A stretch of 48,631 nucleotides of DNA from a virus, in the IMG/VR virus record IMGVR_UViG_3300042549_006742, positions 1 through 48,631 of that record. The stretch is one strand, 5' to 3'. Within the stretch, counting starts at the first letter, position 1. Each line of letters starts with the position of its first letter. The notes beneath the pieces are model-generated. The model did not search any database. It had not been told where the DNA came from and was given only the letters and a program-made list of their open reading frames with translations. Of this stretch, positions 5,299 to 48,372 are shown in pieces. The translations under genes and the position numbers were made by a program.

Positions 5299-5934
5299 AT
5301 GAGAAAAACTATTTTAATAACTGAAGCACAACAACGTGTAATTTTGTGCGAGTTGGCTAATAAGGAAATTGATAGTACTATTGGTGAAAACGATAAATTA
5401 GTTAAACGAATCGCGAAACAAGCGTCAGACCAAATTAAATTTGATTTAAGTATATTGGGTACTTTTAGTTTGGCTATTGGTGGTTTAATGGGTCCGTTGG
5501 AAAAGTTCATTCACGGTGAATACCCTGAAATGTCAACTATGGAGATTAGTTTATTGTTAGCGGGCGTTGGGTTCCAATATATGTTGGATAATAAAGTTCC
5601 GTTATCAAAGTTAATTCAAAAGATTAAAGAAGATGGTTTGTACGATATCTACCAAAAAGTTCTTAAAAAATCTGACGTATTAAAAGATTCTTTCTTATCA
5701 TTTGTTGATAGTTTAGGGGTTAGTGTTAAAAAGACCGCAAATATTATGGGATACACATTCTTAATCCCGTTAATCCCCCTTATATATAATATGGTAACTA
5801 ATGGTCAATTCAGTGAGAATGATACCGTTGAAATAATTAAAAGATTGTCAGGATTTGTCGGTCTTAATTATGGTGGTATTGGTTTAAAAGAATTGTTGTC
5901 ATTAATGGTTGCCCGTTTCCGTAAAGAAAAATAA
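5299..5934 (+). CDS. Tagged membrane protein
   Basis: 211 residues. The first 20 carry the shared tag (MRKTILITEAQQRVIL, then a possible L-C-E site). Hydrophobic stretches around residues 52-70, 85-100 and 155-175 suggest two or three membrane segments (the last is IMGYTFLIPLIPLIYNMV). No family is recognised. The tag plus membrane segments is unusual, since most tagged proteins here look soluble. It is transcribed divergently from the acidic-protein operon, with the TATTTAT box 4 nt from its ATG. Confidence 0.75.
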   Translation: MRKTILITEAQQRVILCELANKEIDSTIGENDKLVKRIAKQASDQIKFDLSILGTFSLAIGGLMGPLEKFIHGEYPEMSTMEISLLLAGVGFQYMLDNKVPLSKLIQKIKEDGLYDIYQKVLKKSDVLKDSFLSFVDSLGVSVKKTANIMGYTFLIPLIPLIYNMVTNGQFSENDTVEIIKRLSGFVGLNYGGIGLKELLSLMVARFRKEK

Positions 5935-6005
5935 CATTAAATTTGACTTTTATTAAAATGATATTATAATTGGAATACAATAATAAAATCAATAAATAAA
6001 AATTT

Positions 6006-6494
6006 ATGTTTAACAAAAATTACCCAAGCATCTTTGATAGCTTTTTAAGTAATGAGACAGATTTATTCGAATCTTTCTTCAATCAATTTAACAAAACGTT
6101 AAAACCAACAGTTGGTGAAACTAAAACTGAAAGTGGGGTTAATGAAGATGGTAGTAAATGGTACAAAACTACATTCACATCTAAAGATGGTAGTTACACT
6201 CAGTCAGTGTATTCTTCAACACCTAACTTATCTAAAACTTGGACACCAAAAAGTAAAACTAAAACAACCGTTACTGACTCAACAATTACTGAATTGACTG
6301 AGAATTTAAATAAAGCGGTTGAGGCTCAAGATTACGAAAATGCGGTTAAATGGAGAGACGAAATTAAGGCTTATGAGAAAAACGCTGATGAGGTTAACAC
6401 ATTGAAGTCTAAATTAGAAACTGCGGTTTCAACTCAAAATTATGAGGACGCAATCAAATTGAGAGACAAAATCAATAAATTGACTAATAAGTAA
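6006..6494 (+). CDS. Protein with two UVR-type helical repeats
   Basis: 162 residues. The C-terminal part holds two copies of a UvrB/UvrC-type UVR helical hairpin: LNKAVEAQDYENAVKWRDEI at about 101-120 and LETAVSTQNYEDAIKLRDKI at about 137-156. These motifs usually mediate protein-protein contact, as in UvrB-UvrC or McsA. The N-terminal half (1-90) is Ser/Thr/Lys-rich with a DGSKWYKTTF segment. No catalytic motif is seen, so an adaptor role is more likely than repair activity. It ends at a perfect terminator. Confidence 0.8.
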   Translation: MFNKNYPSIFDSFLSNETDLFESFFNQFNKTLKPTVGETKTESGVNEDGSKWYKTTFTSKDGSYTQSVYSSTPNLSKTWTPKSKTKTTVTDSTITELTENLNKAVEAQDYENAVKWRDEIKAYEKNADEVNTLKSKLETAVSTQNYEDAIKLRDKINKLTNK

Positions 6495-6512
6495 TATTAG
6501 TTCATATAAAAT

Positions 6513-6544
6513 AAAAAAGGTCATATAACTATGACCTTTTTTTT
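6513..6544 (+). terminator. Perfect 13-bp hairpin terminator
   Basis: AAAAAAGGTCATA at 6513-6525 pairs perfectly with TATGACCTTTTTT at 6530-6542 around a 4-nt loop, followed by more T. It serves both converging genes. Confidence 0.9.
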
Positions 6545-7559
6545 ATCTCTGATAATTTAATATTTGTGTTTTAACTTGTTCTTCCTCATCAGGTGTTAAA
6601 CCGTGAATGTCTCTATGGTTCTCAAACCAATCATTAACAACCACATCAATTGGTACTTTCCTTAATTTGGCTAGTCGTTTAAATCCTTGGTATTGTGCGG
6701 GAATTTCGTGAGCCTGTGTATAATACTCTAAAGATGTGTCAGGTTCGTCTACAACTCTTTCAAATTCCCCGTGATATTCTTGTTTAGAATGTTCCATTTC
6801 GTGAGCCAAGACTTCATTTAATTCGCCAGCCAATTCGTATAGTTGTTTTGTTATAGTATTTGGGTTGTATTCGATTCCAATTTCAATAACATCGTCATCG
6901 GGGGAATAATAACCTTCTACTTTATAACCACCAATAATGTCGTTTAATTTTAATGTTAATTCAACAGAATATGTTTGTTTAGAGTTGATGAAACTATATT
7001 CCTGTTCACCATTAATATCTTCAGGTAAAAACACACCACCTTCTTTTTTATCTTTAACTGTATTAAGAATGTCTTTAACGATAGTTCTAATTGCTAGTCG
7101 ATTCATACGAATTTCATTTAATTGTTTTGTGTCCAACTCAAGTTCTGACGAATATACTAAAATTTGCTCAATTTTAAAATGTTTAATTTGTAATGGTTCT
7201 AAAAATTCTAAAATTTCTTGTTCAATTTGTCCTAACACATACAATTGGTTCATTAAATCCATAATATCCATAATACCATTATTCTCATTAAAGTCAAAAT
7301 TGCTCTCTTTAAAAAGAGTAAGGACTTTTTTAAATGTTTCATTTAAATTAAAAATGGTTACGGAAATCGTGTAAAATTCAGTCCAATCACCAATTCTTAC
7401 CATTTTTTTATTTTCGGGTAAAAATTGGAACATATAATCAAATGAATAATAATCTTTTTTAAATTTAAAATGTTTTTTAACTAATCTTTTATTGATGTTA
7501 TCAATAACTTTTTTTGGTAAAACTTTATTTACAGTTTTTATGTCTTTTTTGTCGTCCAT
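6543..7559 (-). CDS. Putative HExxH zinc metallopeptidase
   Basis: 338 residues. LAHEMEHSKQ places the zinc motif HEMEH at residues 253-257; a downstream AHEIPAQ (Glu at about 285) could be the third ligand, as in gluzincins. The preceding N-terminal 170 residues are helical and unrecognised. It is one of three HExxH proteins in the window (also 25136-25522 and 26388-27530) that share little beyond the motif. A TATTTAT box lies at 7579-7585, 19 nt before the ATG. Substrate unknown; virion maturation or wall peptide cleavage are possibilities. Confidence 0.75.
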   Translation of the reverse strand: MDDKKDIKTVNKVLPKKVIDNINKRLVKKHFKFKKDYYSFDYMFQFLPENKKMVRIGDWTEFYTISVTIFNLNETFKKVLTLFKESNFDFNENNGIMDIMDLMNQLYVLGQIEQEILEFLEPLQIKHFKIEQILVYSSELELDTKQLNEIRMNRLAIRTIVKDILNTVKDKKEGGVFLPEDINGEQEYSFINSKQTYSVELTLKLNDIIGGYKVEGYYSPDDDVIEIGIEYNPNTITKQLYELAGELNEVLAHEMEHSKQEYHGEFERVVDEPDTSLEYYTQAHEIPAQYQGFKRLAKLRKVPIDVVVNDWFENHRDIHGLTPDEEEQVKTQILNYQR

Positions 7560-7623
7560 ATCTTAATTCAATATACTTATAAATACCAAATATGGTATTA
7601 AACTCAACCTCATTTATTTTTTT

Positions 7624-8914: not shown

Positions 8915-10306
8915 TTACCAATTTCTTGAAGATTTTAATCCTAATTTTTTTGCGTATCTACCGACATTACAACTCCAATATCCTGCGGTTGTTCTATCTT
9001 TCTTTTGGTCACATTTATGTCTTGCTCTAAATGATTTTGCTGCCCCCTTGTTATTATTTTTAACTCTTAAATTGGGGTCACCAAAAGTGACTTTCTTAAC
9101 AGTTCCTTTACCTGTCTTAACATATACCGCAAATTTCTTTGGTCCGCCTGGTGTTCTAAAAGGACTACCTAATTTCACATTCTTACCTCGGTGTAATGCC
9201 TCATTAATTGAATCTTCCAATTCATCGTGTTTAAATACTTTTGAATCTAAATCTCTATTTTCAATCGGAGCATATTCGAATGTGAAAGTGTCTCGACCAA
9301 ATGGGTCACGGTCATCAATATCAATTCTTTCTAAATCTTTTTTGAAAAAGTAAGGTTTATTTTTATTAATAAAAACAAAATAATCAAAATCTAAATCTAA
9401 AAATCTTTTGAAGTGTGGAACACCGGTAACTCTAAAATGTCGAATAAAAGTTTTAAATAGAATATTGTATATATTACCCATTAAGAATAATTTAGTAATA
9501 CCATCAAATGTTATACTAAAATACCTCATTGACCCCATCTTTTTGATAAGTTTAATCCTATGGTCCTCACTTAAATTTAACCCCTCACGGATTTCTCTTT
9601 CATCTTCATTTTCTTCCTCATACATTGGTGCGTCCAAGTAAACTTCTTCACCACCTTCAAGGATTACTTTTTTACCTAAATCAGATTCTACTAACCAAGT
9701 ATCTTCTTCATTAAGACGTATTAAGTTTTTATTATATAATGACCTAACTTCATTAACTAAGTTGAAGAACCCCTCAGAATAAATTCTAAACACATTCTCA
9801 CTCAACGAAATCTCATTATCAATATGATATTTTAAAATCTCAGATACGTTAACTTTACCTTCTAATTTCATAGTTTTTTTACCCCATTTTTTACCTTTAC
9901 CTTTAGTTCCACAAGCCGATGGTGTTGGTCTACACGCCGGATATTTTGACCTATCCTCACCCTCACTTCTTCCACAGGACTTACAAGTTTTTTTACCATT
10001 GGAATCTGTACGACAAGTATTACAGTCAACCCAACCTTGAGATTTACCTTTACCACCTTGTCTTGAAAACCATCCGTGTAACCCTGACTTCTTTTCTTTG
10101 CTATAATCAGTTTTTTTGGCTTCGTCAATTGGTTCAACTTCTTCTTTCCAAATTTTACCTTGTCGACATTTAACTACCGCACCTGACGCATACGCAGAAG
10201 GCCAAGTGTCGTATTTTTGTTTAGCTAGTCTAACACATCTATCCGCCTTCTTCTTCTTATTTTTAGATTCATTAAGGACTTCATATATTAATTCATCAAT
10301 ATTCAT
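8915..10306 (-). CDS. Multi-domain phage protein with Zn-ribbon cysteines
   Basis: 463 residues. The N-terminus ends in VLNE-S, a candidate processing site. Residues 20-50 (KADRCVRLAKQKYDTWPSAYASGAVVKCR) and the C-terminal 90 residues (FAVYVKTGKGTVKKVTFGDP, SFRARHKCD, GYWSCNVGRY) are modules I associate with T4-like phage structural proteins. Between about 70 and 145 lies a Gly/Lys-rich segment with CxxC pairs (CNTC, CKSC), likely one or two Zn ribbons. The middle (about 150-370) is unassigned. A TATTTAT box at 10325-10331 lies 18 nt before the ATG. It is a possible virion or assembly protein; the family memory is from knowledge, not a search. Confidence 0.7.
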   Translation of the reverse strand: MNIDELIYEVLNESKNKKKKADRCVRLAKQKYDTWPSAYASGAVVKCRQGKIWKEEVEPIDEAKKTDYSKEKKSGLHGWFSRQGGKGKSQGWVDCNTCRTDSNGKKTCKSCGRSEGEDRSKYPACRPTPSACGTKGKGKKWGKKTMKLEGKVNVSEILKYHIDNEISLSENVFRIYSEGFFNLVNEVRSLYNKNLIRLNEEDTWLVESDLGKKVILEGGEEVYLDAPMYEEENEDEREIREGLNLSEDHRIKLIKKMGSMRYFSITFDGITKLFLMGNIYNILFKTFIRHFRVTGVPHFKRFLDLDFDYFVFINKNKPYFFKKDLERIDIDDRDPFGRDTFTFEYAPIENRDLDSKVFKHDELEDSINEALHRGKNVKLGSPFRTPGGPKKFAVYVKTGKGTVKKVTFGDPNLRVKNNNKGAAKSFRARHKCDQKKDRTTAGYWSCNVGRYAKKLGLKSSRNW

Positions 10307-11298: not shown

Positions 11299-11826
11299 AT
11301 GAAAAGATTTATTATAGACGAAAACAAACTTCGAAACACGATACGTAAAAAAATCCTTGAGCAATCATCAATGGAGGATAAAGAGCAAGAACAAAAACCA
11401 AGATGTTTGACCAATAATATTGTCCGATTGGAGGATATCGTTGGTAGAGCTGACGAGTTAGACAATTATACACCAGGTATAACTAAAAGATTATCGGGAG
11501 TAAACTCAATGGTTGATACTTTAGGTATCCTAAATAACATTAGATTATTTAAAGATGTTAATGATGGTGGTGCTCACTTATCGTATGAAATGATGAACAA
11601 TTTAAATAAATTTCGTAATAAAAACTATTACGATGAAACAACAGGAAATTGTCATAAAGCGATGGATAAAGTGATTGAGTTATATAAAGAACACGAACAC
11701 GGAACCGAACTAGTTAAAGATATTGAACGAGTATTGAATCTTCAATCTAAAGAAGATGAATTTACACCTTCTTCAAGAAGTAAAGAATACTTAAAACAAT
11801 GTTTAAACCTGATTAAAGGTAAATAA
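11299..11826 (+). CDS. Tagged hypothetical protein
   Basis: 175 residues from the ATG at 11299; the upstream in-frame TTG at 11245 is rejected because the shared tag (MKRFIIDENKLRNTIRKK) begins exactly at this Met. The tag ends with ILE-Q, a strong example of the candidate processing site. The rest is helical (KVIELYKEHEHGTELVKDIE) with no known domain. A TATTTAT box lies at 11268-11274, 24 nt upstream. A double hairpin follows the stop. Confidence 0.75.
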   Translation: MKRFIIDENKLRNTIRKKILEQSSMEDKEQEQKPRCLTNNIVRLEDIVGRADELDNYTPGITKRLSGVNSMVDTLGILNNIRLFKDVNDGGAHLSYEMMNNLNKFRNKNYYDETTGNCHKAMDKVIELYKEHEHGTELVKDIERVLNLQSKEDEFTPSSRSKEYLKQCLNLIKGK

Positions 11827-13760: not shown

Positions 13761-14443
13761 CAATCTTTTGGATTGTCTTTGGTGGCATATTTAACCCCCA
13801 TAATAGTACCGACGATACTAAATGCGTTTGTTAATAGAATTCCGAACATATTACTCCAAGCCGGACCGATTGTATTAACTTCCTTATTCATAATAATTGA
13901 GAAGATATACATCCCCGTAGTCACGATTGCTATGAATGCGATAACACCTAACGCAACTTTAACGATATTACCCATCAATTCGGTTTGGGTTTTTTTCTGT
14001 AATAAATCTAAGTCAGTTAATGCGTTAGTCTTTGCGTGTTCAGCATCTTCTCTCGCCAACTCAGTTCGTTTCATTTCATCCTGAAGTTCGTTTTGAATTC
14101 TTTCATTCTCTTCTTTCCAGGTAAGAAGTTCATTATTTTGACATTCAATTTGTTTTTTGGAATTCTCAACGTTATCTAACGTAATTTGTAACTCGTCTAA
14201 TATTCGAACATTTTCGGTATTTAACGATTCTAATTCCTTATTCTTATTTTGAATTTGTTTAGTTATATCTAAACGTTTTTTTCGTGATTCTTTGTCTTTT
14301 TCAGTGCAAGTTTTAATATATTGTGAGAAGTCAGAATCCTCTTCAGCGTCAATTAATTTCAATAAGTTACCCTCAAGACCAATATTCTTGGTCTTGTAAA
14401 GGTCAATTAATTGTTTTTTTGTATTTGCACTAAACTTAATCAT
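13757..14443 (-). CDS. Coiled-coil protein with C-terminal membrane hairpin
   Basis: 228 residues. Residues about 45-155 form a long coiled coil (NKELESLNTENVRILDELQ and similar heptads). Two hydrophobic segments follow at about 158-185 and 198-215, leaving the coiled coil in the cytoplasm. It overlaps the response regulator by ATGA and so is the third gene of the kinase-regulator block, perhaps its membrane-attached effector. No enzyme motif is present. Confidence 0.75.
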   Translation of the reverse strand: MIKFSANTKKQLIDLYKTKNIGLEGNLLKLIDAEEDSDFSQYIKTCTEKDKESRKKRLDITKQIQNKNKELESLNTENVRILDELQITLDNVENSKKQIECQNNELLTWKEENERIQNELQDEMKRTELAREDAEHAKTNALTDLDLLQKKTQTELMGNIVKVALGVIAFIAIVTTGMYIFSIIMNKEVNTIGPAWSNMFGILLTNAFSIVGTIMGVKYATKDNPKDC

Positions 14444-14877
14444 TTATACACTTTGAACTCAGCGGTTCTATTTTTGAAATTAGGGTAATCTTCTCTGAAC
14501 TCTTCTAATCTTGGTTCAATCTCATCTGATTTGACCAACCAAAATTGTGCTCCGGCTTGTAACGCTTTTGCTTGTTCTGATGGTTCATTTGATGATGAAA
14601 TAATTCCGATAACTACGTGGTTACCATATTCAAAATTAATCTTTCTCACTAACTCAATTCCGTCAAATGATGAACCAATTATATTTAAATCAACAAATAC
14701 ACATTCAGGTTTTTCTGAGTTATTTCCTGAATCAAACCATTGTTTAAACATTCTTGCCGCCTCATCTGAGCTATTAACAGATTTTAGTGATAAACTGATA
14801 TCTAATAACGAACAAGCGTCTTCAAATACTAAGTGGAATAAATCCTCGTCATCGACTAATAATATAGATTCTATCAT
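14440..14877 (-). CDS. Receiver-only response regulator
   Basis: 145 residues covering one receiver domain: acidic pair D9-D10 (LLVDDED), phosphoacceptor D63 (CVFVDLN), Ser at 94-96 (IISSS) and Lys116 (FWLVKSDE). No DNA-binding output domain follows, so it acts through protein contact, in the manner of CheY, Spo0F or Rcp1. It sits between the histidine kinase and the coiled-coil membrane protein. A TATTTAT box (14896-14902) 18 nt upstream suggests it can also be expressed separately from the kinase. Confidence 0.9.
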   Translation of the reverse strand: MIESILLVDDEDLFHLVFEDACSLLDISLSLKSVNSSDEAARMFKQWFDSGNNSEKPECVFVDLNIIGSSFDGIELVRKINFEYGNHVVIGIISSSNEPSEQAKALQAGAQFWLVKSDEIEPRLEEFREDYPNFKNRTAEFKVYK

Positions 14878-14904
14878 TTTTTAAATTTTATAACAATAAA
14901 TACT

Positions 14905-14920
14905 TTACTTTTAAAAGTAA
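14905..14920. repeat. 16-bp perfect palindrome
   Basis: TTACTTTTAAAAGTAA lies in the 50-nt gap between the kinase and response-regulator genes, next to the TATTTAT box. It could be an operator or a weak processing hairpin. Confidence 0.5.
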
Positions 14921-14927
14921 TTTGGAT

Positions 14928-17066
14928 TCACCTCAATTTTATTTTCATTTTTGTACCTGTTTCATTTTTTTCACAAGTAATGGTAAAACCGTGTTCGTGT
15001 AAAATTGCGATACAAATATTCAACCCCAAACCTGTTCCTGATTCTTTTTGACCTTCTTTTCTATGATATGGTTGTGATAGGTATTCGAATTCTGATTGAG
15101 TCATACCACGACCATTGTCCTGTAATGCTAAGTGGTTTTCGTCTTCCATATAGACCGCAACCACCTTATTATCCGAATCGTTATATTTTAAACCATTACG
15201 AATTAAATTATCAATTGCCGTACAAAATAGAGGTTCATTAACATCCAATGTTGGTAACCAATCAATTGCAACTTGACTTGAATATGCGGTGGATGTTAAG
15301 TATGAGTTTAAGATGTCTCTTAGATTTAAATTTTCTTTTGTTAATACAACATCTTGTTTAACTAAATTTGTAAATTCATAAACTCCCTTATAAACTTTCT
15401 GTGTATGTTTTAAACCTTCCTTCAACATTTTAAGTGGGGCTTCCAATTTTAATGTTTCAATATCTTCAGGTTTTAATCTTCGTTCTAACGAACTAATTCC
15501 TCTTGGGATGTATGTGTTTATCCCTGAGTGCATATCGTGTCTTAGAATCTTCGCAGCGTGTTCTAAATATGTGTTTTTCTTTTCTATCTCTCTCTTTTGT
15601 TCATAAGAAGTTGTAATGTCTGTTGAAATTTTCATAACACGATAAACCTTACCATCAACACTAAGAATTGGGTTGTAAGTTGCTTGTAAATAAACTAAAG
15701 AACCATCTTTTTTAATTCTAATAATTTCACCTGAAAATGATAAACCATCTTTTAATTTTTCCCAAAAAATACGATACTCGTCACTTTTTGAATATTCTTC
15801 ATCCACAAAAATTCTATGATGATTTCCAATTACTTCAGCATTAGATGAATATCCCATAGTTTCTAAGAACAAATTATTGGCAAAAACGATATTACCTTCT
15901 AAATCAAATTCAATAACCGCATTAGATTTATTAATAGCATTCATTCTATTATGAATTTCTACTTCCTTTTTTTTAAGTTCAGTAACGTCTTGTCTAATTG
16001 ACGTATAACCTTTTACTTTACCGCTATCACTATCAAAATCGGCTTTAATATAGGTGTCAACCCAATATAATTCACCTTCTTTATTTTTATTGATAACTAA
16101 GTCATTCCAAATCCCACCTTTTTTAACGGTCTTATACATATTAGCCCAAAATTTCTTATCGTGAATTCCCGAATTAACAATATTATGGTCTTTACCTAAA
16201 CACTCATCAAGACTCCAACCTGAAACATCTTCAAATTTTTTATTAACGTAAACAATTTTACCTCTTTTATCTGTTTTACTGACCAAGACTGATGAGTCCA
16301 CAAAATGTTCAAACTCACCTAATTCATTTTTAAGTTCATTACCTTCTTGAACTGAATAAGCAAATGAAAATAATGACGATAACATTTCGGCAAAATTTAC
16401 TTCCACTTTATGCCATTCCCTAACCGTATAACTTTCAATACATATTACACCAATTACTTCACCTTTATAAACGATTGGAACGTCAAGCATTGCTCTAACA
16501 CCTAATGGGTCTGAATAAGTTTCTTTAAAACATTGTGTTGATGGATGTAAATTAACATCATTTGCAATTATAATCGGATTTGTTTTAAGTCCATTGAAGT
16601 ATGGTTTATAATCTTTTTCAAAAATCTCAATCCCGTTAACCCATTCACCTGTTTTTTTCTCATATAATTGTTCACACACAATACTTGTTTTTTTCTGGTT
16701 ATATAACCAAATTGAACATCTATCGGCACATACGCTATTTGTAACTTCTTTAGTTAATAATTTAGCACCTTCATTAACATTTCCCTCATAAAATAAATGA
16801 TTGTGTGTTTGTGATATTAAAGTTTCATTTAAATTTCTTGCGTAATAATTCAATTTAATTGATTCTTTATTTTTTTTCACATAATCATAAATTATTTTGA
16901 AAAATAGGGGGATAAATAAAACAAAACAGATAAATTCAACCCACATTACTGAATTACATAGGGGTAGAATATTAAACACCACTAAAAGTTTTATTATCAA
17001 AAACATTGTCATCACAACGACTGAGGTATAAAAAGAATATCGTGTGTTTTTTTCTAGTGATATCAT
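14928..17066 (-). CDS. Membrane sensor histidine kinase (GAF-PAS-PAS)
   Basis: 712 residues. Two membrane segments (about 11-33 and 41-60) are followed by a GAF domain (about 85-240; MLDVPIVYKGEVIGVICIE), a PAS domain (about 250-365; ending YTSIRQDVTE), a second PAS (about 372-485; ending VMKISTDIT), an H-box with His510 (ILRHDMHSG) and a HATPase domain with N-box (IDNLIRNGLKYN, 618-629), DNGRGM (650-655) and GTGLGL (677-682). All key residues are present, so it should be active. A TATTTAT box lies at 17084-17090, 17 nt upstream. A complete sensor kinase is rare on a phage. The ligand is unknown; the PAS style resembles Aer or redox sensors. Confidence 0.93.
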   Translation of the reverse strand: MISLEKNTRYSFYTSVVVMTMFLIIKLLVVFNILPLCNSVMWVEFICFVLFIPLFFKIIYDYVKKNKESIKLNYYARNLNETLISQTHNHLFYEGNVNEGAKLLTKEVTNSVCADRCSIWLYNQKKTSIVCEQLYEKKTGEWVNGIEIFEKDYKPYFNGLKTNPIIIANDVNLHPSTQCFKETYSDPLGVRAMLDVPIVYKGEVIGVICIESYTVREWHKVEVNFAEMLSSLFSFAYSVQEGNELKNELGEFEHFVDSSVLVSKTDKRGKIVYVNKKFEDVSGWSLDECLGKDHNIVNSGIHDKKFWANMYKTVKKGGIWNDLVINKNKEGELYWVDTYIKADFDSDSGKVKGYTSIRQDVTELKKKEVEIHNRMNAINKSNAVIEFDLEGNIVFANNLFLETMGYSSNAEVIGNHHRIFVDEEYSKSDEYRIFWEKLKDGLSFSGEIIRIKKDGSLVYLQATYNPILSVDGKVYRVMKISTDITTSYEQKREIEKKNTYLEHAAKILRHDMHSGINTYIPRGISSLERRLKPEDIETLKLEAPLKMLKEGLKHTQKVYKGVYEFTNLVKQDVVLTKENLNLRDILNSYLTSTAYSSQVAIDWLPTLDVNEPLFCTAIDNLIRNGLKYNDSDNKVVAVYMEDENHLALQDNGRGMTQSEFEYLSQPYHRKEGQKESGTGLGLNICIAILHEHGFTITCEKNETGTKMKIKLR

Positions 17067-37715: not shown

Positions 37716-38930
37716 TTATTTTACCGTATCAATACTATTAATTTCCCAATCAATCTCATTGAACATTCGTTTTAATTTATATTCATATGTTCGATTAAAC
37801 CAATCAACGATTAAATCAGGATTATTACCAAAGACTTCAAATAATTTAGAGTATCTTGGTTCCAAATATAATCTCCTATCATCTGAACCATAATCATTAT
37901 CAAAAAACCCAATTAACTTAGAATTAAGATTAAATCTGTCTTTATCTATAACATAGATGTTAACACCATCTTCTGATGGGCTCATTACAAATTTAACATT
38001 CTCAGGTAATAACTGAGGGGCAACGTGTTTGATGTATTTATCAATCGTATTATCTTTTTTAGATTCGGTATTCTCATTAATAGATTTACCCTCATCTTCA
38101 CTAAACTCTTCCGCATCAACAAGTATTTGAATTTTATTATGGTCAATTCTATCAAAAAAACTACCGGTGATTGGGATTGAGTTGTTTGTTATCTTATTCC
38201 ACTTATCAACAATATCCATAGTTAAATGACTACGATAATTGGGTTGCCAAGTGGCATAACCACCAGCATCACTCTCCGTATAATGAACTATAACTAATGG
38301 AATATCTTTAAATCTTGAGGGATGTAAATAGGGGTCTTTTTTTCTTGTTACCTCCAAATGTGAAATATTGGGATATTCTTTATATAACCATTTCTTAAAT
38401 AATTCAACCCTTTTATCAATTGGAATTGAAACCCCCTCATTAATTACTTCATCATCATCAACAAACTCTTCAGTATCAATAACAATTTTTGCATTATATC
38501 CACTAAATTTCCATCTAGGTATGACAGGTATTTGACCACCTGTAACTTTATTCCATTCGTCACTTATTTCACCCGCTAACCAAGAGTCGTGATTAACCGC
38601 ATCACTATCGGTTGTATAATAAATTTTAATTAACGGATGACCGTCATATGTTGAGGTTTCCAAAAACGAAATCTCGTCAAAATTATTATGTAACCATTTT
38701 TTAAATAAGTTAACACTTTTTTCGGTTGAAATCTCTTCTTTCAACAATCTAAATCTCAATAACGGTTTACCGTTAATTGTTATATCACCCTTGTCATTCT
38801 TACCAATGGTTTTAACAACAACCTTCTTATTCTTAAATTTCCCACCCATTAATGTATCCCCAACTTTAATGTCGAGTTTAATCATTTCATTAATGGATTT
38901 ATATTGTTCTTCAGTTATTATTATTTTCAT
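37716..38930 (-). CDS. Tagged protein with an internal tandem duplication
   Basis: 404 residues. MKIIITEEQYKSINEMIK is the tag. Two related blocks follow: one beginning VNLFKKWLHNNFDEISFLE (about 72) and ending IDTEEFVDDDEVINE, the other VELFKKWLYKEYPNISHLE (about 175) and ending VDAEEFSEDEGKSINE. Each is about 95-110 residues. The C-terminal part is unrelated. No domain is named. It lies downstream of two other tagged genes with close spacing. Confidence 0.75.
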   Translation of the reverse strand: MKIIITEEQYKSINEMIKLDIKVGDTLMGGKFKNKKVVVKTIGKNDKGDITINGKPLLRFRLLKEEISTEKSVNLFKKWLHNNFDEISFLETSTYDGHPLIKIYYTTDSDAVNHDSWLAGEISDEWNKVTGGQIPVIPRWKFSGYNAKIVIDTEEFVDDDEVINEGVSIPIDKRVELFKKWLYKEYPNISHLEVTRKKDPYLHPSRFKDIPLVIVHYTESDAGGYATWQPNYRSHLTMDIVDKWNKITNNSIPITGSFFDRIDHNKIQILVDAEEFSEDEGKSINENTESKKDNTIDKYIKHVAPQLLPENVKFVMSPSEDGVNIYVIDKDRFNLNSKLIGFFDNDYGSDDRRLYLEPRYSKLFEVFGNNPDLIVDWFNRTYEYKLKRMFNEIDWEINSIDTVK

Positions 38931-38939
38931 AGTATCATT

Positions 38940-39368
38940 TTAAATTTTAGTCCTCATCCAACTGAACAAATTTGCGAAATTAGATTTTACTGTTTTGATT
39001 CCCCTTAAATTATAAACCTCACCCAACCACTTCTCTGTAACTTTTTGAATAACAAGGTTGGTCAAATCAAAATATTCATCCAAAACCCACCAAATATCAG
39101 AACTAATGTAAACTTCATCATTTCGTCTGTTGTAAACCATTAAGTTATAACCTTTTTTATAACGAAATAACGTCCAATCACCATCTGTTTCAGATTGAAC
39201 AACTTCCAAATCATCAAACAGGTGTAAGAACTCCATAAAAGTATCAATATTCAATACTTTACAAAAAGTATCAAACCCACCCATTAAGTCAATAACCTGT
39301 TTAACCCCATTGGTTTTAATCAACTCTTTAAGTCTCTCAACTTTATTTTCGGTTATTATTATTTTCAT
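38940..39368 (-). CDS. Tagged protein with LGG-type module
   Basis: 142 residues. MKIIITENKVERLKELI, then TNGVKQVIDLMGGFDTFCKV is the module shared with 30706, 39365 and 40095. The remainder (LFDDLEVVQSETDGDWTLFRY, ... EKWLGEVYNL) is homologous to the C-terminal half of 39365-40111. It overlaps that gene at its start. Function unknown. Confidence 0.75.
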   Translation of the reverse strand: MKIIITENKVERLKELIKTNGVKQVIDLMGGFDTFCKVLNIDTFMEFLHLFDDLEVVQSETDGDWTLFRYKKGYNLMVYNRRNDEVYISSDIWWVLDEYFDLTNLVIQKVTEKWLGEVYNLRGIKTVKSNFANLFSWMRTKI

Positions 39369-40111
39369 ATCATTTTAATATAACTAGGACCCAGTAAAGG
39401 TTCTGTTCTCTTTAAGTTTAAGTGGAAAACATCTTCAGCCCACTCCTTAGTGTATTCAATAATACTGTAGTATTCAATACCAAGTTTACCATTTAAAAAA
39501 TCCCAAATTTCTTTTTCACTTATGTAAAGACACTTTAGGAATTTATCGTAAATCATCACATTATTACCTTCCTGATATCTAAATAAAATGTAATCATTTT
39601 TATCTTTTGATTGAACTGCCTCTAAATCATCAAATAGATGTAAAAAGTCCATCGGACCACTAAGATTAAATATTTTACAAAATTTATCCCAACCACCCAT
39701 TAATTTAATTGTGGTATTAGGTCCTTCACGATTAAGTATATATTTAAGTTTATCAACTTTATTTTCAGTAATAATACCGTCTTCAAGTTTACCATTAATT
39801 AATATTGGGACAATCCAAGGTTTTCCTGTGTAGTATAATTTTTCACGTAAATATTGTGCAAATCCTTGAACATCATCTTCATCAAAGTAAGCGTCTGCAT
39901 AAACATCAATATAAACACTTAATGATGGTTTATGTTTGATATTTATCACTTTAACTTTATCTATATGGCTAAACAATGTTAGATACCAATTACTAGCACT
40001 AATCTCTTCATTACGATAACGTTCCTTTAGTACGGATAATTCTTCATCAATCAATCGTTGGAATAACCCAAAAACCTTTTTATTTACTTCCTCGTTAATT
40101 AATATCTTCAT
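39365..40111 (-). CDS. Tagged protein fused to a second, internal tag plus LGG module
   Basis: 248 residues. The N-terminal tag MKILINEEVNKKVFGLF is followed by a beta-rich domain (about 45-110) and then, at about residue 114, by IITENKVDKLKYIL and the LMGGWDKFCKIFNL module. From there the sequence aligns with the whole downstream protein (38940-39368), tag included. This is a clear gene fusion that kept the tag. It overlaps neighbours on both sides. Confidence 0.8.
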   Translation of the reverse strand: MKILINEEVNKKVFGLFQRLIDEELSVLKERYRNEEISASNWYLTLFSHIDKVKVINIKHKPSLSVYIDVYADAYFDEDDVQGFAQYLREKLYYTGKPWIVPILINGKLEDGIITENKVDKLKYILNREGPNTTIKLMGGWDKFCKIFNLSGPMDFLHLFDDLEAVQSKDKNDYILFRYQEGNNVMIYDKFLKCLYISEKEIWDFLNGKLGIEYYSIIEYTKEWAEDVFHLNLKRTEPLLGPSYIKMI

Positions 40112-40601
40112 TGATATAACTGTTTAATTTATATTTCTCTATAATTTGTTTGAATATCTGAGTTCTACCTCGTTTACCAATTGTATTTCTTTTTGATATA
40201 AATGAATATCCAAATCCTGAGTCACCACAAGTACCAAGAACTCTCCTATACTCTTGACCACTATGTCCATTAAATGGTGTAGACGCGTATGCAGTGAACT
40301 TATAATTCATACCACCACTAGTCCATTTAAAATCACCAAGTTTCTTTTCTTTCTTATTCCAACTATCTTCTAAATTAAGTGACTCAATTAATAAATTGTC
40401 GATATACATATTCTCACCTGTCGAATCGAATTTATATGGGACAAAACCTGTTGATTTATAAAATTCCTTTAAATCATCGTTAAATGCTACTTTCAACAAA
40501 GTTTTAATACCACCAACCAATTTAACCACCTCATTAACACCTTTAGTATTAATTAACTCACGTAATTTTTCACCGGCTGATTCTTTAATCAAAATTCTCA
40601 T
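40095..40601 (-). CDS. Tagged protein with LGG-type module
   Basis: 168 residues from the ATG at 40601 (MRILIKESAGEKLRELIN); the longer frame from 40625 is rejected because of the TATTTAT box 4 nt upstream. TKGVNEVVKLVGGIKTLLKV is the LGG module. The C-terminal part (FTAYASTPFNGHSGQEYRRV) has Gly/Tyr-rich loops and is unassigned. First gene of the overlapping 40601-38940 block. Confidence 0.7.
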   Translation of the reverse strand: MRILIKESAGEKLRELINTKGVNEVVKLVGGIKTLLKVAFNDDLKEFYKSTGFVPYKFDSTGENMYIDNLLIESLNLEDSWNKKEKKLGDFKWTSGGMNYKFTAYASTPFNGHSGQEYRRVLGTCGDSGFGYSFISKRNTIGKRGRTQIFKQIIEKYKLNSYINEDIN

Positions 40602-41607: not shown

Positions 41608-42111
41608 TTAGGCCGTTTGTTGTTTTAATGTTTTACAAGCCGTAATATTAAACCCTTTTCCAAATTTCTGAGATAGTTTCCATATCGTATCCCAAGACAC
41701 TGTGGCCTCACCACTCAAATCTTCATATAATGGTTTACCAAATTTTTTATTATATGCGTTTAACACTGAACCCATTTGTTGTTGTGTTTTAATCTCACTA
41801 AACACTTTATTTAAATCACCTGAAGTTCCAATACCTTTAATCGAATTATTTAATCTTAGTATCCAAGACTGAATTGTTTTATCCGCAGGATTTGGTTGAC
41901 CTGACACTCCTCGTAATTTACTAAATAACTCTAAGACTAATTCTGAAGTTTTTTTGGTTTGTTGACATATAGTTTGAGGTGAGGAGTCAACCGCGTCATA
42001 ACCGGTATCGGGCATTGATTCAAGACCCCCAAGAGAAAACGCCTGTTCTTTTATAACTCTCTTGACTATTCTAACTAAATCTGATTCAGATAATCTTATT
42101 ACTTTTTTCAT
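41608..42111 (-). CDS. Tagged hypothetical protein
   Basis: 167 residues. The tag MKKVIRLSESDLVRIVKRVI ends in IKE-Q. It is nearly the same as the tag of 46025-46429 although the bodies differ completely. The body is helical (KTSELVLELFSKLRGVSG), with no known domain. It lies 12 nt downstream of 42124-42531. Confidence 0.75.
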   Translation of the reverse strand: MKKVIRLSESDLVRIVKRVIKEQAFSLGGLESMPDTGYDAVDSSPQTICQQTKKTSELVLELFSKLRGVSGQPNPADKTIQSWILRLNNSIKGIGTSGDLNKVFSEIKTQQQMGSVLNAYNKKFGKPLYEDLSGEATVSWDTIWKLSQKFGKGFNITACKTLKQQTA

Positions 42112-42123: not shown

Positions 42124-42531
42124 TTAAAATTCATCCTCTTCCTCAGAGTCATATCCATTTAATTTGTCTTCACAAAACTCAATAATATCTTTTAAATAAT
42201 CAATAGCTTCATCATCAGACATTTCCATTAGTTCATCTTCAATATCTTGATGAATACTTGGTAGGTCATACATTCTGTAATCACTATCATCTTCCTCCAA
42301 TTCATTTTCTTCAGAACCCAAAACTTCCTCATCGTTAACTAATGAGTCAAAATCATCCTCATCTATTTCACTAAACGATTCTAATTGTTCACTAACCAAT
42401 GGTTTAGCATTACCCAATTTATTTTCTACCAAGGCTTTAAACCTTTCAGTCTGTACTTGCAAACTACCGGTATGTTGTGAACGAATACTATTTCTTTCTT
42501 CTTCACTCATTTCATTTAAAATGTGTTTCAT
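42124..42531 (-). CDS. Acidic protein with NEMSEEER-type N-terminus
   Basis: 135 residues. MKHILNEMSEEERNSIRSQH is a second tag type, like 3762-4493. It is very acidic (ENELEEDDSDYRMYDLPS, C-terminal SEEEDEF), with a second L-V-S-E-Q at about residue 46. A TATTTAT box lies at 42547-42553, 15 nt upstream. It may be a scaffold or internal protein. Confidence 0.7.
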   Translation of the reverse strand: MKHILNEMSEEERNSIRSQHTGSLQVQTERFKALVENKLGNAKPLVSEQLESFSEIDEDDFDSLVNDEEVLGSEENELEEDDSDYRMYDLPSIHQDIEDELMEMSDDEAIDYLKDIIEFCEDKLNGYDSEEEDEF

Positions 42532-42579: not shown

Positions 42580-43908
42580 TTATTTAGAGAGTTCAATCAA
42601 ATCGGACTCTTTAAACTTATATGTTTTACCAACAGTCCCAATTGGGGAATTATTGAAAACATAAACATCCGAACCTTTAATGAATGCCATTCTATCAATA
42701 GGTTTATTACTGTAATTAACCGCATTTGAGAACCCAATATTTGCTGAATAAATACCATCTTTTAATTCAATATTGGATAATGGTTTAATTTGATACGTTA
42801 CACCATCAATTGTGGCATCAATACCATCAATTATGTCTTTTTTTGTGCCAAAACCTGAGATTTTAATATCAGAACCCGGATGAAATTGGTCCCTTATTTT
42901 TTCAGCATCAAGTTTTTCTTGTCTAAAATTGTTAACTATTGATTTAAGTTGGATGTCAAGAAGTTGTTTCATATCATCACTATCAACATCCCTGAATAAA
43001 TCGGCCATCCAATTAATCATTGACGACTCAATATTACCCTCATCATATGTAAATTTGTTATCTTTGATGTCTCTAGCCAAAAATAACTTCATTCTTTCGT
43101 GAATTGGTAGTTTAGTGTTAAAGAAATTGACAATTGACCAACCCCTCTTATCAAATGGAATAGGTTTTACACCGACAACACCCGCAACATACTCATTAGT
43201 CGATGGTGTCCAATAATCTTTAAAGGCAATCTCAAGGGCTTTCTTAATATTTGTTGACTTAATGTAAGACTCAAACTTCACAATATCGGGGAAATATGGA
43301 AATACTTTAGAATCAAACACATTTTTCCATATATAAATTTTCTTATTCTTAGTTAAAAAGATATCTTTAGACGATAATTCGAAGGTTTCATTAGTAATTG
43401 TGTTATGTAATAGTACTTTACAACCCGGTGTCTCTTTAATTTCATTAAAAACACGTTCAAGTTCAGATGGAGTGTCAGCAATACCATTAATGTATACTAA
43501 TTCATATTGAAATCCAAAATTAGTGTAATCAATTTCAATTACACATTCATCAATTGGTTCATCAGGAACCAAATCCAACTCCTGTTCATTCAAACTATCT
43601 TGTAATATCACCTCATTTGTGAATATCTTTAAATGGGGGAAACTTTTTCTAAGTCTATATTGTATTTCACTTGTTAAAAAATCAAAATCAAAGGTATCAT
43701 CATAACCATAAATGTCAATCCAAACTTTAATTCCATCATTATATGTCATATGATTAATCTCAACACCATCAATTGATGCTATTGCGTCCTGTGCATCCCA
43801 AGAAAACCCCTCACTATTAGATAGTATATCCTCAACTTGAACATTAATTAAATATTCAAGGATTTCTTTCAGTTTAGTTTCCTTACTCTCAGTAATTATT
43901 ACTTTCAT
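42580..43908 (-). CDS. Tagged protein with possible PD-(D/E)XK nuclease domain
   Basis: 442 residues. MKVIITESKETKLKEILE is the tag. About residues 45-110 share the beta-rich style of the N-terminal domain of 39365. Near the C-terminus, IIDGIDATIDGVTYQIKPLS (about 357-376) has the spaced D ... Q-x-K form seen in some restriction-type nucleases. The TATTTAT box is 4 nt upstream. The nuclease call is weak. Confidence 0.7.
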   Translation of the reverse strand: MKVIITESKETKLKEILEYLINVQVEDILSNSEGFSWDAQDAIASIDGVEINHMTYNDGIKVWIDIYGYDDTFDFDFLTSEIQYRLRKSFPHLKIFTNEVILQDSLNEQELDLVPDEPIDECVIEIDYTNFGFQYELVYINGIADTPSELERVFNEIKETPGCKVLLHNTITNETFELSSKDIFLTKNKKIYIWKNVFDSKVFPYFPDIVKFESYIKSTNIKKALEIAFKDYWTPSTNEYVAGVVGVKPIPFDKRGWSIVNFFNTKLPIHERMKLFLARDIKDNKFTYDEGNIESSMINWMADLFRDVDSDDMKQLLDIQLKSIVNNFRQEKLDAEKIRDQFHPGSDIKISGFGTKKDIIDGIDATIDGVTYQIKPLSNIELKDGIYSANIGFSNAVNYSNKPIDRMAFIKGSDVYVFNNSPIGTVGKTYKFKESDLIELSK

Positions 43909-44337: not shown

Positions 44338-44613
44338 CTATTTATTCATTTTATATATTTCAATCAACTCGTCACCAAACATACTCATAATCTCATTATG
44401 AATATCTTCATCAAACGATTGTGAGAAATCTCTAGCACAATAACCTCTAAGAGTTGCCGTAATAACGTACTTATACGTGCTCCATTCAAACGAACTTGGG
44501 GGAACAGTTAATTTCTCCTCGCCACTTTTTAATTGGTCAACATAATCTCTCATACAATGATATCGTCGTTTCAGATAAATACTATACTGTCGTTCAGTTA
44601 TAATGATTTTCAT
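44338..44613 (-). CDS. Tagged hypothetical protein
   Basis: 91 residues. The tag MKIIITERQYSIYLKRRYHC is followed by a small mixed domain (KYVITATLRGYCARDFSQSF). The TATTTAT box is 4 nt upstream, with the consensus TGAT spacer. Function unknown. Confidence 0.7.
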   Translation of the reverse strand: MKIIITERQYSIYLKRRYHCMRDYVDQLKSGEEKLTVPPSSFEWSTYKYVITATLRGYCARDFSQSFDEDIHNEIMSMFGDELIEIYKMNK

Positions 44614-44682: not shown

Positions 44683-45513
44683 TTAGTTTTTCACTTGAAT
44701 ACTCTTCTTAAAGGTTAACGTAATATATGTATCATCATTACCGTATAAGTATAATTTACCAAATAAATCATAACCTAAAAATTTACTTCTCATTCTCAAA
44801 GGTCCGGCAACATCTAACTCAGCATTAACTGATTGATTTGGTGTCCGTCCGTCACCGTTTTTATTTAAATCCTCAACTTTAATAAATACTTGAAAAGGAC
44901 CTGTAGATTGTTTAGGTTGTAATGTCATAGGTACTTTTAAATCTGAAGTAACTAAATCAGTATCACCATTGAATACTTTAATAGTGATTGGGGTTGTTGA
45001 GTTATTAGTAAAACCTTCAAATTTAAATGGTACTAACGTACCAACAGTTGTTGTTGTTGGTTTTTCCGATTTTGTTAAATCAAGATTTCTATTACCTACC
45101 AACTCTTCAACCTTACCTTCGCCAACTTGAGGTTTACCATCAGCACCAACTGTACCAACTTGAGGTTTACCATCAGCACCAACTGTACCAACTTGAGGTT
45201 TACCATCAGCACCAACTGTACCAACTTGAGGTTTACCATCAGCACCAACTTGAGGGTTATTTACAGGTGCTTTTCCACCCGGAAATTGAGTCTCCAATTT
45301 TTGAATGGTGGTGGGGTATTTTGATATATCTAAAATCTTACCTGATTTATTCTTTGCAACCCACTTATTATTCTGTTTCTGATATGTATAATTTTTATCA
45401 CCAGGAACTGTTAACCAAGTATTATCAACAACCTGTTCTTTTAACAACCTTCTTTCTTCAAGTAATCTATTTGATTCCTGAATATGTCGTATCTTACTAT
45501 AACTTCGATTCAT
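44683..45513 (-). CDS. Repeat-linker protein with C-terminal beta domain
   Basis: 276 residues. The N-terminus (IQESNRLLEERRLLKEQ) is helical and ends in L-K-E-Q. Residues 32-75 have a WVAKNKSGKILDISKYPTT segment. About residues 88-130 are four near-identical 11-residue units (GADGKPQVGTV). The C-terminal 120 residues are beta-rich and Ig/fibre-like. The layout suits a structural or adhesive protein. A TATTTAT box lies at 45528-45534, 14 nt upstream. Confidence 0.75.
   Translation of the reverse strand: MNRSYSKIRHIQESNRLLEERRLLKEQVVDNTWLTVPGDKNYTYQKQNNKWVAKNKSGKILDISKYPTTIQKLETQFPGGKAPVNNPQVGADGKPQVGTVGADGKPQVGTVGADGKPQVGTVGADGKPQVGEGKVEELVGNRNLDLTKSEKPTTTTVGTLVPFKFEGFTNNSTTPITIKVFNGDTDLVTSDLKVPMTLQPKQSTGPFQVFIKVEDLNKNGDGRTPNQSVNAELDVAGPLRMRSKFLGYDLFGKLYLYGNDDTYITLTFKKSIQVKN
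45122..45250 (-). repeat. 33-bp in-frame tandem repeat, 3.9 copies
   Basis: Near-identical 33-bp units begin at 45122, 45155, 45188 and 45221. They encode the 11-residue linker GADGKPQVGTV. The near-identity suggests recent slippage expansion or a need for exact spacing. Confidence 0.9.
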
Positions 45514-45632: not shown

Positions 45633-45965
45633 CTATTTTTTAGGACTTGTATCAACTAATTGTTCTAATGTTGGTAAAGTTACCCCACTGATTTTTTTTG
45701 CAACCAAATCGTCCTGAACAAGTTTAATTACTTGTGGGTATAATTGTGTAACATCAGCACCTTCTGAACCTTGACTAGTAATGATTTGACTTGTCGTTTT
45801 ATCAACCACTTTAATATCTAATCGACAACTACCAAAAAAACAAAACTTAGTTCCCGCGGCAACGTATTGTGTATTAGGGGTTTGTCCTGATGGGGCAGGT
45901 GCTGCCTGTTCATATAATCCCTTTATATGTTTCTTATCGGCTTCAGTAATTATAAACTTTTTCAT
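45633..45965 (-). CDS. Tagged protein with clear LYE-Q site
   Basis: 110 residues. MKKFIITEADKKHIKGLYE-Q, then AAPAPSGQTP. This is the clearest example of tag, site and low-complexity linker; the downstream AAPAP parallels 2528-2782. The body contains two Cys (FCFFGSCRLDIKVVDKTTSQ). A TATTTAT box lies 14 nt upstream (45980-45986). Confidence 0.75.
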   Translation of the reverse strand: MKKFIITEADKKHIKGLYEQAAPAPSGQTPNTQYVAAGTKFCFFGSCRLDIKVVDKTTSQIITSQGSEGADVTQLYPQVIKLVQDDLVAKKISGVTLPTLEQLVDTSPKK

Positions 45966-45997: not shown

Positions 45998-46026
45998 AAA
46001 AAACCCCACGGATGAGGTGGGGGGTT
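45998..46026 (-). terminator. Intrinsic terminator (repeated sequence)
   Basis: ACCCCAC (46003-46009) pairs with GTGGGG-type sequence (46017-46024). It shares its core with the terminator at 41571. Confidence 0.85.
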
Positions 46027-46429
46027 AATCAATCTCTTTTCTTGATTTCTTATTTAATACATTGTCTATGTGGTCACTTAACCTTTGACAAATAGGGGTT
46101 AAATCTTCAATATCTTCCTCATTATCACCAACAATAAAAAATGCAGATTCAATGTATGATTTTAAATATACACTCCACTCTTCTTTTTCTTCTTGTGTTA
46201 AATCGTCTGCCACATCGTAAGTCAACTGAAGTATTGGGATTTGAAGTTGTTGTTTAGCTCTTTCAAGACGAGTTTGCACTTTAGGTTTCTCACCACTAAA
46301 AAAAGAACTACCCCCAAGAAAATAATCTCCATTATTAAATTGAACAACATCTAAATCATCTGACTCATTAATAACCCTTTTAACAATTCTAACTAAATCA
46401 GATTCTGTTAGTCTTATAACTTTTTTCAT
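46025..46429 (-). CDS. Tagged hypothetical protein
   Basis: 134 residues. MKKVIRLTESDLVRIVKRVI followed by NE-S (I-N-E-S). The tag is nearly identical to that of 41608-42111; the bodies are unrelated. A helical body (LERAKQQLQIPILQLTYDVA). A TATTTAT box lies 14 nt upstream (46444-46450). Confidence 0.7.
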   Translation of the reverse strand: MKKVIRLTESDLVRIVKRVINESDDLDVVQFNNGDYFLGGSSFFSGEKPKVQTRLERAKQQLQIPILQLTYDVADDLTQEEKEEWSVYLKSYIESAFFIVGDNEEDIEDLTPICQRLSDHIDNVLNKKSRKEID

Positions 46430-46463
46430 ATATACTTTTTATCATAAATATTATATAAAACAA

Positions 46464-46491: not shown

Positions 46492-46493
46492 TA

Positions 46494-46855: not shown

Positions 46856-46884
46856 AAAAACCCCTCCGTTGAAGAGGGGGTGGT
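46856..46884 (-). terminator. Intrinsic terminator
   Basis: CCCCTC (46861-46866) pairs with GAGGGG (46874-46879), with a T-run on the minus strand. Ends the ParB-like gene; the 5' part matches the terminator at 47957. Confidence 0.85.
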
Positions 46885-46888
46885 AAGA

Positions 46889-47758: not shown

Positions 47759-47813
47759 AATACTTTTTTTTGTCGGGTCTAATTACCCATTGTTTTGTGG
47801 TCTATTACCAAAT

Positions 47814-47844
47814 CAAAGATATATATAATCCCCTAATTTATCAA
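47814..47844 (-). promoter_or_regulatory. Bacteroidota-type promoter of the ParB-like gene
   Basis: On the minus strand: TTG (47844-47842), 20 nt, TATCTTTG (47821-47814). The ATG is 55 nt away, and the leader contains a short GGGT/ACCC hairpin near 47780. Confidence 0.65.
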
Positions 47845-47956
47845 AATTTTTTCCAGAAATTTTTTTTCACTATTAGACCCCTTTTTAGAATATGTCGATT
47901 TTTTCAGGAAATTTAAACATATCACCCCAATATGTACATTCAATAAACATATAACA

Positions 47957-47985
47957 AAAAACCCCTCCGTTGAAGGAAGGGTTCT
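47957..47985 (-). terminator. Intrinsic terminator
   Basis: ACCCCTCC (47961-47968) pairs with GGAAGGGT (47975-47982), with a T-run on the minus strand. Confidence 0.75.
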
Positions 47986-48003
47986 AATTAATTATATTGG
48001 GGA

Positions 48004-48372
48004 TTATACAATGTTAGCCCCCACAACACTCTTAATGTTATAATCAGGAAAATATTTGTTGAAGACATATTCCACAAAATATTTCTCATTACTCATCCAC
48101 ATCAGGTTAGGTAATAACTCCTCAATCTCCCCAATAAACTTATGGTCATAATATAAACACTCATTAACTTTCTTATACCTCATAATAACATTCATATCCT
48201 TGTCATATAATTCCACCTTATCATCATTCTCCCCATACCCTTTTAGTTTCCTAACCATCATTTTAGATACCACCCCTTTGTAAGTGTCAAATAACTTCTC
48301 AGCCTCCTTATTCTCATATTGAGAAAATCTTCTAATCTCCCCCAATTGTTTCTCTGTAACTATAATCTTCAT
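48004..48372 (-). CDS. Tagged hypothetical protein
   Basis: 122 residues from the ATG at 48372 (MKIIVTEKQLGEIRRFSQYE); the longer frame from 48420 is rejected because the tag and the TATTTAT box point to this Met. Body of mixed fold (MMVRKLKGYGENDDKVELYD). Last gene before the G-run region. Function unknown. Confidence 0.7.
   Translation of the reverse strand: MKIIVTEKQLGEIRRFSQYENKEAEKLFDTYKGVVSKMMVRKLKGYGENDDKVELYDKDMNVIMRYKKVNECLYYDHKFIGEIEELLPNLMWMSNEKYFVEYVFNKYFPDYNIKSVVGANIV

Follow-up and report, generated by a model that had tools for sequence, protein, structure and literature searches.

Short N-terminal leaders shared by unrelated proteins of large uncultivated phages are probable capsid-targeting and processing signals

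The window analysed here, the whole of a 48,631-base virus record (IMG/VR record IMGVR_UViG_3300042549_006742; 31% G+C), carries many genes whose products begin with one of several short N-terminal leaders, or tags, placed ahead of largely unrelated bodies. A sequence-only reading had taken these starts for one common tag and likened it to the capsid-targeting sequences of phage T4. The analysis indicated that they are probably T4-style capsid-targeting leaders, greatly expanded in number and cut by a gp21-type (S77) prohead protease. Six computed results bear on this conclusion: the common leaders, their division into classes, an [I/L/V]-x-E junction, the exchange of leaders between homologous bodies, the co-occurrence of the leaders with the S77 protease and the gp23-type capsid protein, and an upstream element common to tagged and head genes.

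All 17 starts named in the earlier reading, together with five variants, were open reading frames with the N-termini quoted for them, and the sharing it had noticed was confirmed to exceed chance. A regular expression for the tag matched 19 of 81 window genes, compared with 0.53 on average (5 at most) when the window N-termini were shuffled 200 times, and with 2 of 203 internal-methionine windows (Fisher p 1e-9). The 19 matches were the 17 named starts, the start at 42531 and that at 23554, the last of which looks like a chance match. In four large relatives the same expression matched 29/359, 34/380, 18/268 and 16/564 genes (shuffled means 1.7, 2.2, 1.6 and 2.6, respectively). A class-free test, in which ungapped BLOSUM similarity was scored over residues 2-28 for all gene pairs in the window, gave 38 pairs scoring at least 32, as against 3 pairs at residues 61-87 and 4.0 in shuffles. 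With looser patterns that covered all classes, 22 of 80 window genes (about a quarter) were tagged, where 0.8 were expected from internal-methionine windows. The corresponding counts were 35/342 for G055, a 186.8-kb IMG/VR record whose bases 18,582-67,212 are the window at 100% identity, and 35/191 for G018, 33/355 for G011, 43/376 for G001, 21/262 for G009 and 18/543 for G006 (expected 1.1-3.7), giving 18-43 tagged genes per large record.

The proposal of a single common tag was rejected. At least five leader classes were found, having mainly their end motif in common, on 319 body-nonredundant open reading frames among the matches listed, in phage records of up to 412 kb; the five supposed variants (4493, 10306, 26388, 42531 and 45513) belong to classes other than that of the tag. 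The commonest leader, MKK[IV]IRLTES[DE]Lx[RK]I[VI]K[RK]VIxE (the RLTES class), was gathered from the viral collection by a degenerate DNA pattern for the first 11 residues, and its counts refer to the matches listed. In the 112 body-nonredundant proteins compared, where the pattern fixes residues 1-11, residues 12-22 lie outside the search pattern and were also conserved. Information content, 3.1 bits at Glu22, dropped to 1.0 at residue 23 and 0.34 at residue 24. Glutamate occupied residue 22 in 97 of the 112; the first [ILVMF]-x-E ended at residue 22 in 94 proteins, at residue 26 in six and elsewhere in 11, with none in one, and the residue after the site was Q, S or N in 70/111. Residue 20, the P3 position of Glu22, was I in 80, V in 15, L in 14, T in two and S in one. 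In the ITE-E-E-K class a site was present in 23 of 24 proteins and was followed by Q in 16 of these 23. Further classes comprised short basic helices (MNLNxIIKKVLKE), HIQESN leaders and leaders like MLINEQILRMKLMMGLLNE. Synonymous codons varied at conserved tag residues (four Thr codons and six Ser codons, for example), and selection was therefore at the protein level.

The tag had been said to run into [I/L]-x-E in about ten proteins. In 12 of the 17 strict cases in the window [ILVMF]-x-E stood past the core at residues 15-23, but not in the other five (24284, 33239, 34071, 44613 and 48372). The leader-bearing genes of the window were as follows, a slash marking the predicted cut.

46025-46429, minus strand: RLTES class; 22-residue leader MKKVIRLTESDLVRIVKRVINE, then S, at 46364-46429
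41608-42111, minus strand: RLTES class; VIKE/Q ends the leader at residue 22 (42046-42111)
11299-11826, plus strand: tagged gene; KILE/Q ends the leader at residue 21 (11299-11361)
25558-26388, plus strand: tagged, muramidase-like; NINE/Q ends the leader at residue 23 (25558-25626)
45633-45965, minus strand: tagged gene; GLYE/Q ends the leader at residue 19 (45909-45965)
23952-24284, minus strand: tagged gene; no [ILVMF]-x-E past the core
5299-5934, plus strand: tagged gene; ILCE/L ends the leader at residue 18 (5299-5352)
31643-32059, minus strand: ITE-Q class; LFE/Q at residue 18 (32006-32059)
37716-38930, minus strand: ITE-Q class; INE/M at residue 15 (38886-38930)
38940-39368, minus strand: ITE class; LKE/L at residue 15 (39324-39368)
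39365-40111, minus strand: tagged gene; LIDE/E at residue 23 (40043-40111)
40095-40601, minus strand: tagged gene; LRE/L at residue 15 (40557-40601)
42580-43908, minus strand: tagged gene; LKE/I at residue 15 (43864-43908)
32850-33239, minus strand: ISE class; no [ILVMF]-x-E found past the core
33517-34071, minus strand: ITE class; no site by the core, IDE/N only at residue 32
44338-44613, minus strand: ITE-Q class; no [ILVMF]-x-E found downstream of the core
48004-48372, minus strand: VTE-x-Q class; only LGE/I at residue 12
8915-10306, minus strand: short-helix leader MNIDELIYEVLNE, then S, at 10268-10306
26388-27530, plus strand: short leader of short-helix type; MRKLIESVLHE/ELGVP (26388-26420)
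44683-45513, minus strand: HIQESN class; LLKE/Q ends the leader at residue 26 (45436-45513)
3762-4493, minus strand: TNEERxxILDKH class ([TS]-[NE]-E-E-R type); possible site VTE/Y at residue 30 (4404-4493), not kept in the relatives shown
42124-42531, minus strand: MSEEERxxIRSQH class ([TS]-[NE]-E-E-R type); site uncertain, LVE/N at residue 36

The bodies, described earlier as completely different, were not quite so: those starting at 39368 and 40601 and the C-terminal half of that at 40111 have a common module. The gene at 39365-40111 contains a second tag-like stretch, ITENKVDKLKY, around residue 113, as though two tagged genes had fused. Residues 1-104 of 42580-43908 matched smaller proteins, part of them tagged; when relatives of this protein were sought for fold analysis, none was found besides the copy in the phage's own parent record. 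Assignment of 41608-42111 to PF00191 was rejected, the match lying under the family cut-off. Positions 45122-45250, in the HIQESN-class gene, are 33-base tandem repeats coding VGADGKPQVGT. Outside the window, short basic leaders were seen in tandem at L390:2128-3675, MNLQQTIRKILREE then NNLQETVRKVLREK, ahead of a muramidase-like protein. In the cultured Flavobacterium phage vB_FspM_immuto_2-6A (immuto; record MW353175) a further common leader, like FDLKKFLVENKLTxNSKLLxE, was present on four proteins (L241:1803, L243:3806, L243:17631 and L243:18632), two of them encoded directly before TerL. Leader-bearing genes of immuto lie at 1803, 25061, 103806, 111675, 117631 and 118632 of its record.

If a leader is removed, the place of the cut would be expected to outlast replacement of that leader. 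RLTES-tagged bodies have homologues with other leaders, and in 23 of 25 of these, representing 6/7 families, [ILVMF]-x-E lay no more than 6 residues from the junction; controls shifted by 13, 26 and 39 positions gave 5/25, 13/25 and 10/25. The count was 20/22 after removal of RLTES-like leaders. Eleven of the 25 members came from one family (YMFFSNLEQ), in which the leaders are 13-22 residues long and every one ends in [ILV]-x-E. An earlier count of 25/27 in 8/9 families included two RLTES leaders behind start codons called too far upstream, which were set aside. A cruder test, which mixes swaps with small insertions, placed the motif within 4 residues in 82/93 pairs, only 16 of them in exact register, with 10, 11, 11, 19 and 54 of 93 in shifted controls.

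Individual bodies gave the same picture. One body, 98% identical in its two copies, stood behind an RLTES leader and an HIQEAN leader that have only their last residues, RVIKE, in common, as if recombination had cut within the leader. The product of 11299 and its six matches had differing leaders, each ending in [ILF]-x-E (a seventh, weak match with E 3e-4 was not counted), and the three full-length relatives of 5299 had leaders ending LITE/, IILE/ and LLE/. The four relatives of 10306, with homology only past about residue 143, carried other short leaders ending in [IL]-x-E. Two strong relatives and one weak relative of 26388 also had other leaders ending in [IL]-x-E, ahead of LGVP; for a fourth protein, starting LGV, the match was made only by eye. 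At least four leader types occurred among relatives of the muramidase-like gene 25558, and the leaders ahead of Q[KT]ISLPI bodies numbered five, of which four belonged to one class and the fifth to another; each ended in [IL]-x-E.

The gp21-like protease that the sequence-only reading proposed to look for in the rest of the genome was found in relatives, G018 among them. From the 88 matches listed, 37 tag-bearing records were picked by hand, mostly the largest, others of >48 kb being left out; an S77 protease was present in 25 of the 37 and in 10/10 of those of at least 240 kb. All 23 gp23-bearing records had the protease, and the 12 that lacked it lacked gp23 also; because the two were missing together, these 12 are probably fragments that do not include the head module. 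A second set comprised 15 records picked from 43 loci; 9/9 of its gp23-bearing records, one of them also in the first set, had the protease. Among controls (the 17 contigs of >40 kb among the 80 matches listed; random, AT-rich, 41-104 kb) it occurred in 2/17, compared with 10/18 tag-bearing records of 49-99 kb (p 0.012). Residues H85 and S140 of T4 gp21, which we take to be catalytic, were kept in four relatives and in immuto, and in one relative the protease matched 5jbl, a solved structure of a prohead core protease, at 4e-18. The relatives' capsid proteins aligned to T4 gp23, and the major capsid protein (MCP) had a predicted processing site, I-[NY]-E/A, at residue 60 in 17 of the 17 recognised among 20 neighbourhoods.

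Tagged genes were also marked by an upstream TATTTAT, which is the core of the T4 late promoter read on the opposite strand. It lay within 25 nt upstream of 67/100 tagged and 178/987 untagged genes (p 9e-24; window and three relatives pooled, leaving out G006), with peaks 11-13 and 20-25 nt ahead of the start codon. Examples in the window are:

2783-2802, 5279-5298 and 46430-46450: TATTTAT element

In the three relatives the element occurred within 60 nt upstream of 28/54 head-region genes versus 200/874 other untagged genes. In all three it stood ahead of the genes taken to be TerL, protease and scaffold, and in one of three ahead of the capsid gene; TerL, scaffold and bS21 were named in the uncultivated relatives by position and by eye. 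In immuto, 21/81 genes past 78 kb, the part holding most of the annotated structural genes, had the element, versus 13/142 of the remainder, the 78-kb border having been set after the positions were seen. Since TATTTAT is common to tagged and head genes, the tagged genes are probably late genes. The T4 late promoter TATAAATA was rejected as a typical feature of most tagged genes, being found within 25 nt upstream of 6/116 tagged and 35/1533 untagged genes.

Candidate cargo was surveyed with Pfam, using the 149 longest of the 319 nonredundant tagged proteins among the matches listed, a set that includes a small number of false tags (an M42-like peptidase at L063:6186, for example). Pfam identified three phage lysozymes, of which one is fused to polyphosphate kinase 2 (PPK2), together with peptidoglycan-binding and VanY domains, a sigma-70 sigma factor and a UPF0227 hydrolase, the UPF0227 domain starting at residue 27, directly past the leader. 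The sigma-70 family factor at L083:2357-2932 has an ITE-Q leader and is a candidate packaged sigma factor. Comparison of the tagged window proteins with PHROGs, and of some of them with Pfam, gave nothing convincing. For the lysozyme-like enzyme of the sequence-only reading, taken to be the product of 25558, comparison of folds gave some support. Its model consists of a leader helix at residues 9-18, predicted at modest confidence, then a disordered linker and, at residues 74-276, a confidently modelled body that is lysozyme-like. With VIA-align, this body had a GH24 muramidase as its best match (Z 8.1) and many T4 lysozyme entries at Z 7.1-7.4, a range that can arise by chance; Foldseek gave no match in the PDB at E<=0.001, and there was no Pfam match. 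Because Foldseek returned nothing significant in the PDB, the predicted GH24-like muramidase (lysozyme) fold is regarded as suggestive. The possible nuclease of the earlier reading found no support among the tagged window proteins scanned. A DNA/RNA non-specific endonuclease (Endonuclease_NS) is encoded at 29441-30082, with a signal-peptide-like start and none of the leaders described here.

T4 gp21 reportedly cleaves after L/I-X-E, ten residues of IPIII are enough for targeting, and targeting and processing are separable (PMC9026906); another source describes T-even internal proteins as diverse defence proteins in which only the targeting sequence is conserved (PMC3012670). The T4 system (IPI, IPII, IPIII and Alt, with gp21) resembles the present one in its short N-terminal leaders, unrelated bodies and L/I-x-E motif, and in an S77 protease with H85 and S140 encoded near a gp23-type capsid gene. 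In the phages described here, by contrast, the leaders fall into several classes and a large record has 18-43 tagged genes, whereas four internal proteins are named for T4; wall enzymes and a sigma factor are also among the candidate cargo. The T4 IPI leader reaches ITE/A at residue 19 and has no other clear similarity to the tag. Phages phiKZ and SPN3US (proteases gp175 and gp245) are likewise large and package many head proteins, with N-terminal propeptides that end in x-E. Of eight SPN3US propeptides reported, however, only two are short (20 and 24 residues) and six span 111-254 residues, and the motif is S/A-X-E or A-X-E, whereas P3 in the RLTES class is I, L or V. The A/S-x-E motif did not characterise that class (S at P3 in 1/112 among the matches listed). 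The system described here probably works like T4 capsid targeting, with a protease and capsid protein that are probably homologous; its leaders are unlike those of T4 and increased in number. Because no homology of the leaders to those of T4 was found in the 40-kb T4 stretch read, membership in that system is claimed no further. A short tblastn search of annotated phages with the tag gave no match, the query probably being too short. Microcystis phage Mel-JY01 had no leader set of comparable breadth; three of its genes at 60-62 kb have a like start, MIKLKSLLKE. No description of these leaders was recognised among the papers listed in searches of a library of openly licensed papers.

From these results we infer core binding, cleavage, packaging and injection of the tagged proteins. 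Each late-expressed protein would be made with a leader of about 11-30 residues, probably an amphipathic helix, which would bind the prohead core during assembly; the S77 protease would then cut after [I/L/V]-x-E, and the body, freed within the head, would be injected together with the DNA. The bodies would be exchangeable as cargo and would comprise muramidases and further wall enzymes, together with a sigma factor, a hydrolase and many unknown proteins.

The T4 analogy draws on the presence of the S77 protease wherever gp23 was found, the I-x-E site of the MCP, the drop in conservation after the motif, the leader swaps and the upstream element. Several results weigh against it. Neither an S77 protease nor gp23 was found in the window record or in its 186.8-kb parent G055. 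Of the relatives seen to carry a head module, G018 is the nearest; there the module lies 45-49 kb upstream of the match to window 5299, and if this gene order is kept its position would fall past the end of G055. The two protease-positive control contigs had gp23 and lacked the RLTES pattern, as did T4 and immuto; the protease therefore does not imply the tag, and its co-occurrence with tags may come from common ancestry of one phage group. The tag expression had no match in a 40-kb stretch of T4 in which ipI is the sole gene annotated as an internal head protein. In the ITE-Q class, 36/109 proteins had no [ILVMF]-x-E at +5 to +25 past the core; these may be targeted but uncut, cut at the core ITE, or have another role. 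The core [I/L]-T-E itself fits L/I-x-E, which makes the cut site ambiguous. One of the seven swap families (2 members) had no motif at the junction. In the window alone, [ILVFM]-x-E at residues 13-32 was present in 13/19 tagged and 20/59 untagged proteins, compared with an expectation of 0.51 when residues 10-32 of the tagged proteins were shuffled, a modest enrichment; proof of the cleavage motif from the window alone was rejected as too weak, and the convincing evidence is that from the relatives. In G006 TATTTAT was scarce (2/16 tagged, 18/546 untagged). No virion proteomics for these phages was found in the openly licensed literature.

The siteless third of the ITE-Q class would also fit leaders that are unprocessed targeting or interaction helices docking on the prohead core, portal, membrane or replication compartment, with [I/L/V]-x-E as the helix end. 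T/S/N-E-x-[DEQ] resembles a helix start, a leader helix was modelled for 25558, and the T4 work separates targeting from processing (PMC9026906). This explanation is nevertheless unlikely: conservation ends right after the Glu, differing leaders keep [I/L/V]-x-E at the junction, and the predicted cut site of the capsid protein has the same motif. The frequency of TATTTAT ahead of tagged genes might instead suggest that the common start is an expression device, either a coding-level translation enhancer or a promoter-plus-start cassette spread by recombination; it seems very improbable, given that synonymous codons vary at the conserved residues, that conservation is at the protein level and extends up to residue 22, and that many genes with TATTTAT are untagged (178, compared with 67 tagged). 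Least probable of all is a single fast-evolving paralogous family in which the tag is a remnant of common ancestry and the bodies have diverged past recognition. Tandem paralogues are suggested by G011 at 32-34 kb and by window genes 39368, 40111 and 40601, but the bodies match unrelated families (phage lysozyme, sigma-70, UPF0227, VanY and PPK2) and a single body can have different leaders.

A broader proposition, for and against which the balance is about even, is that a large group of uncultivated, probably Bacteroidota-infecting phages uses a modular capsid-export code of half a dozen dissimilar leader classes, one protease signal and 20-40 cargos per genome, swapped by recombination; the virion would then be a multi-effector injection device whose payload could be read from the genome. 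What a phage carries in its head is usually established by proteomics on cultured isolates. With a readable leader, the injected payload could be predicted for many large uncultivated phages together: wall enzymes, a sigma factor and numerous unknown proteins that are candidates for anti-defence or takeover functions. The leaders would also add new protein-packaging tags. The idea is testable in immuto, a cultured phage with similarly built leaders.

The relatives of the window probably belong to the same group as the bS21-encoding Bacteroidetes phages, which in the accessible text also have TerL, portal, protease and MCP genes with a small opposite-strand gene, and which differ in that N-terminal leaders are not mentioned in that text (PMC9723584). 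Because of this resemblance, the host is likely to be a member of the Bacteroidota. In G009 and G011 a small gene on the opposite strand was taken by eye for bS21. Window genes include those for thymidylate synthase, FKBP, DHFR and many unknowns, and a two-component pair, comprising a GAF-PAS-PAS histidine kinase and a response regulator identified with Pfam, is carried by the phage at window positions 14440-17066.

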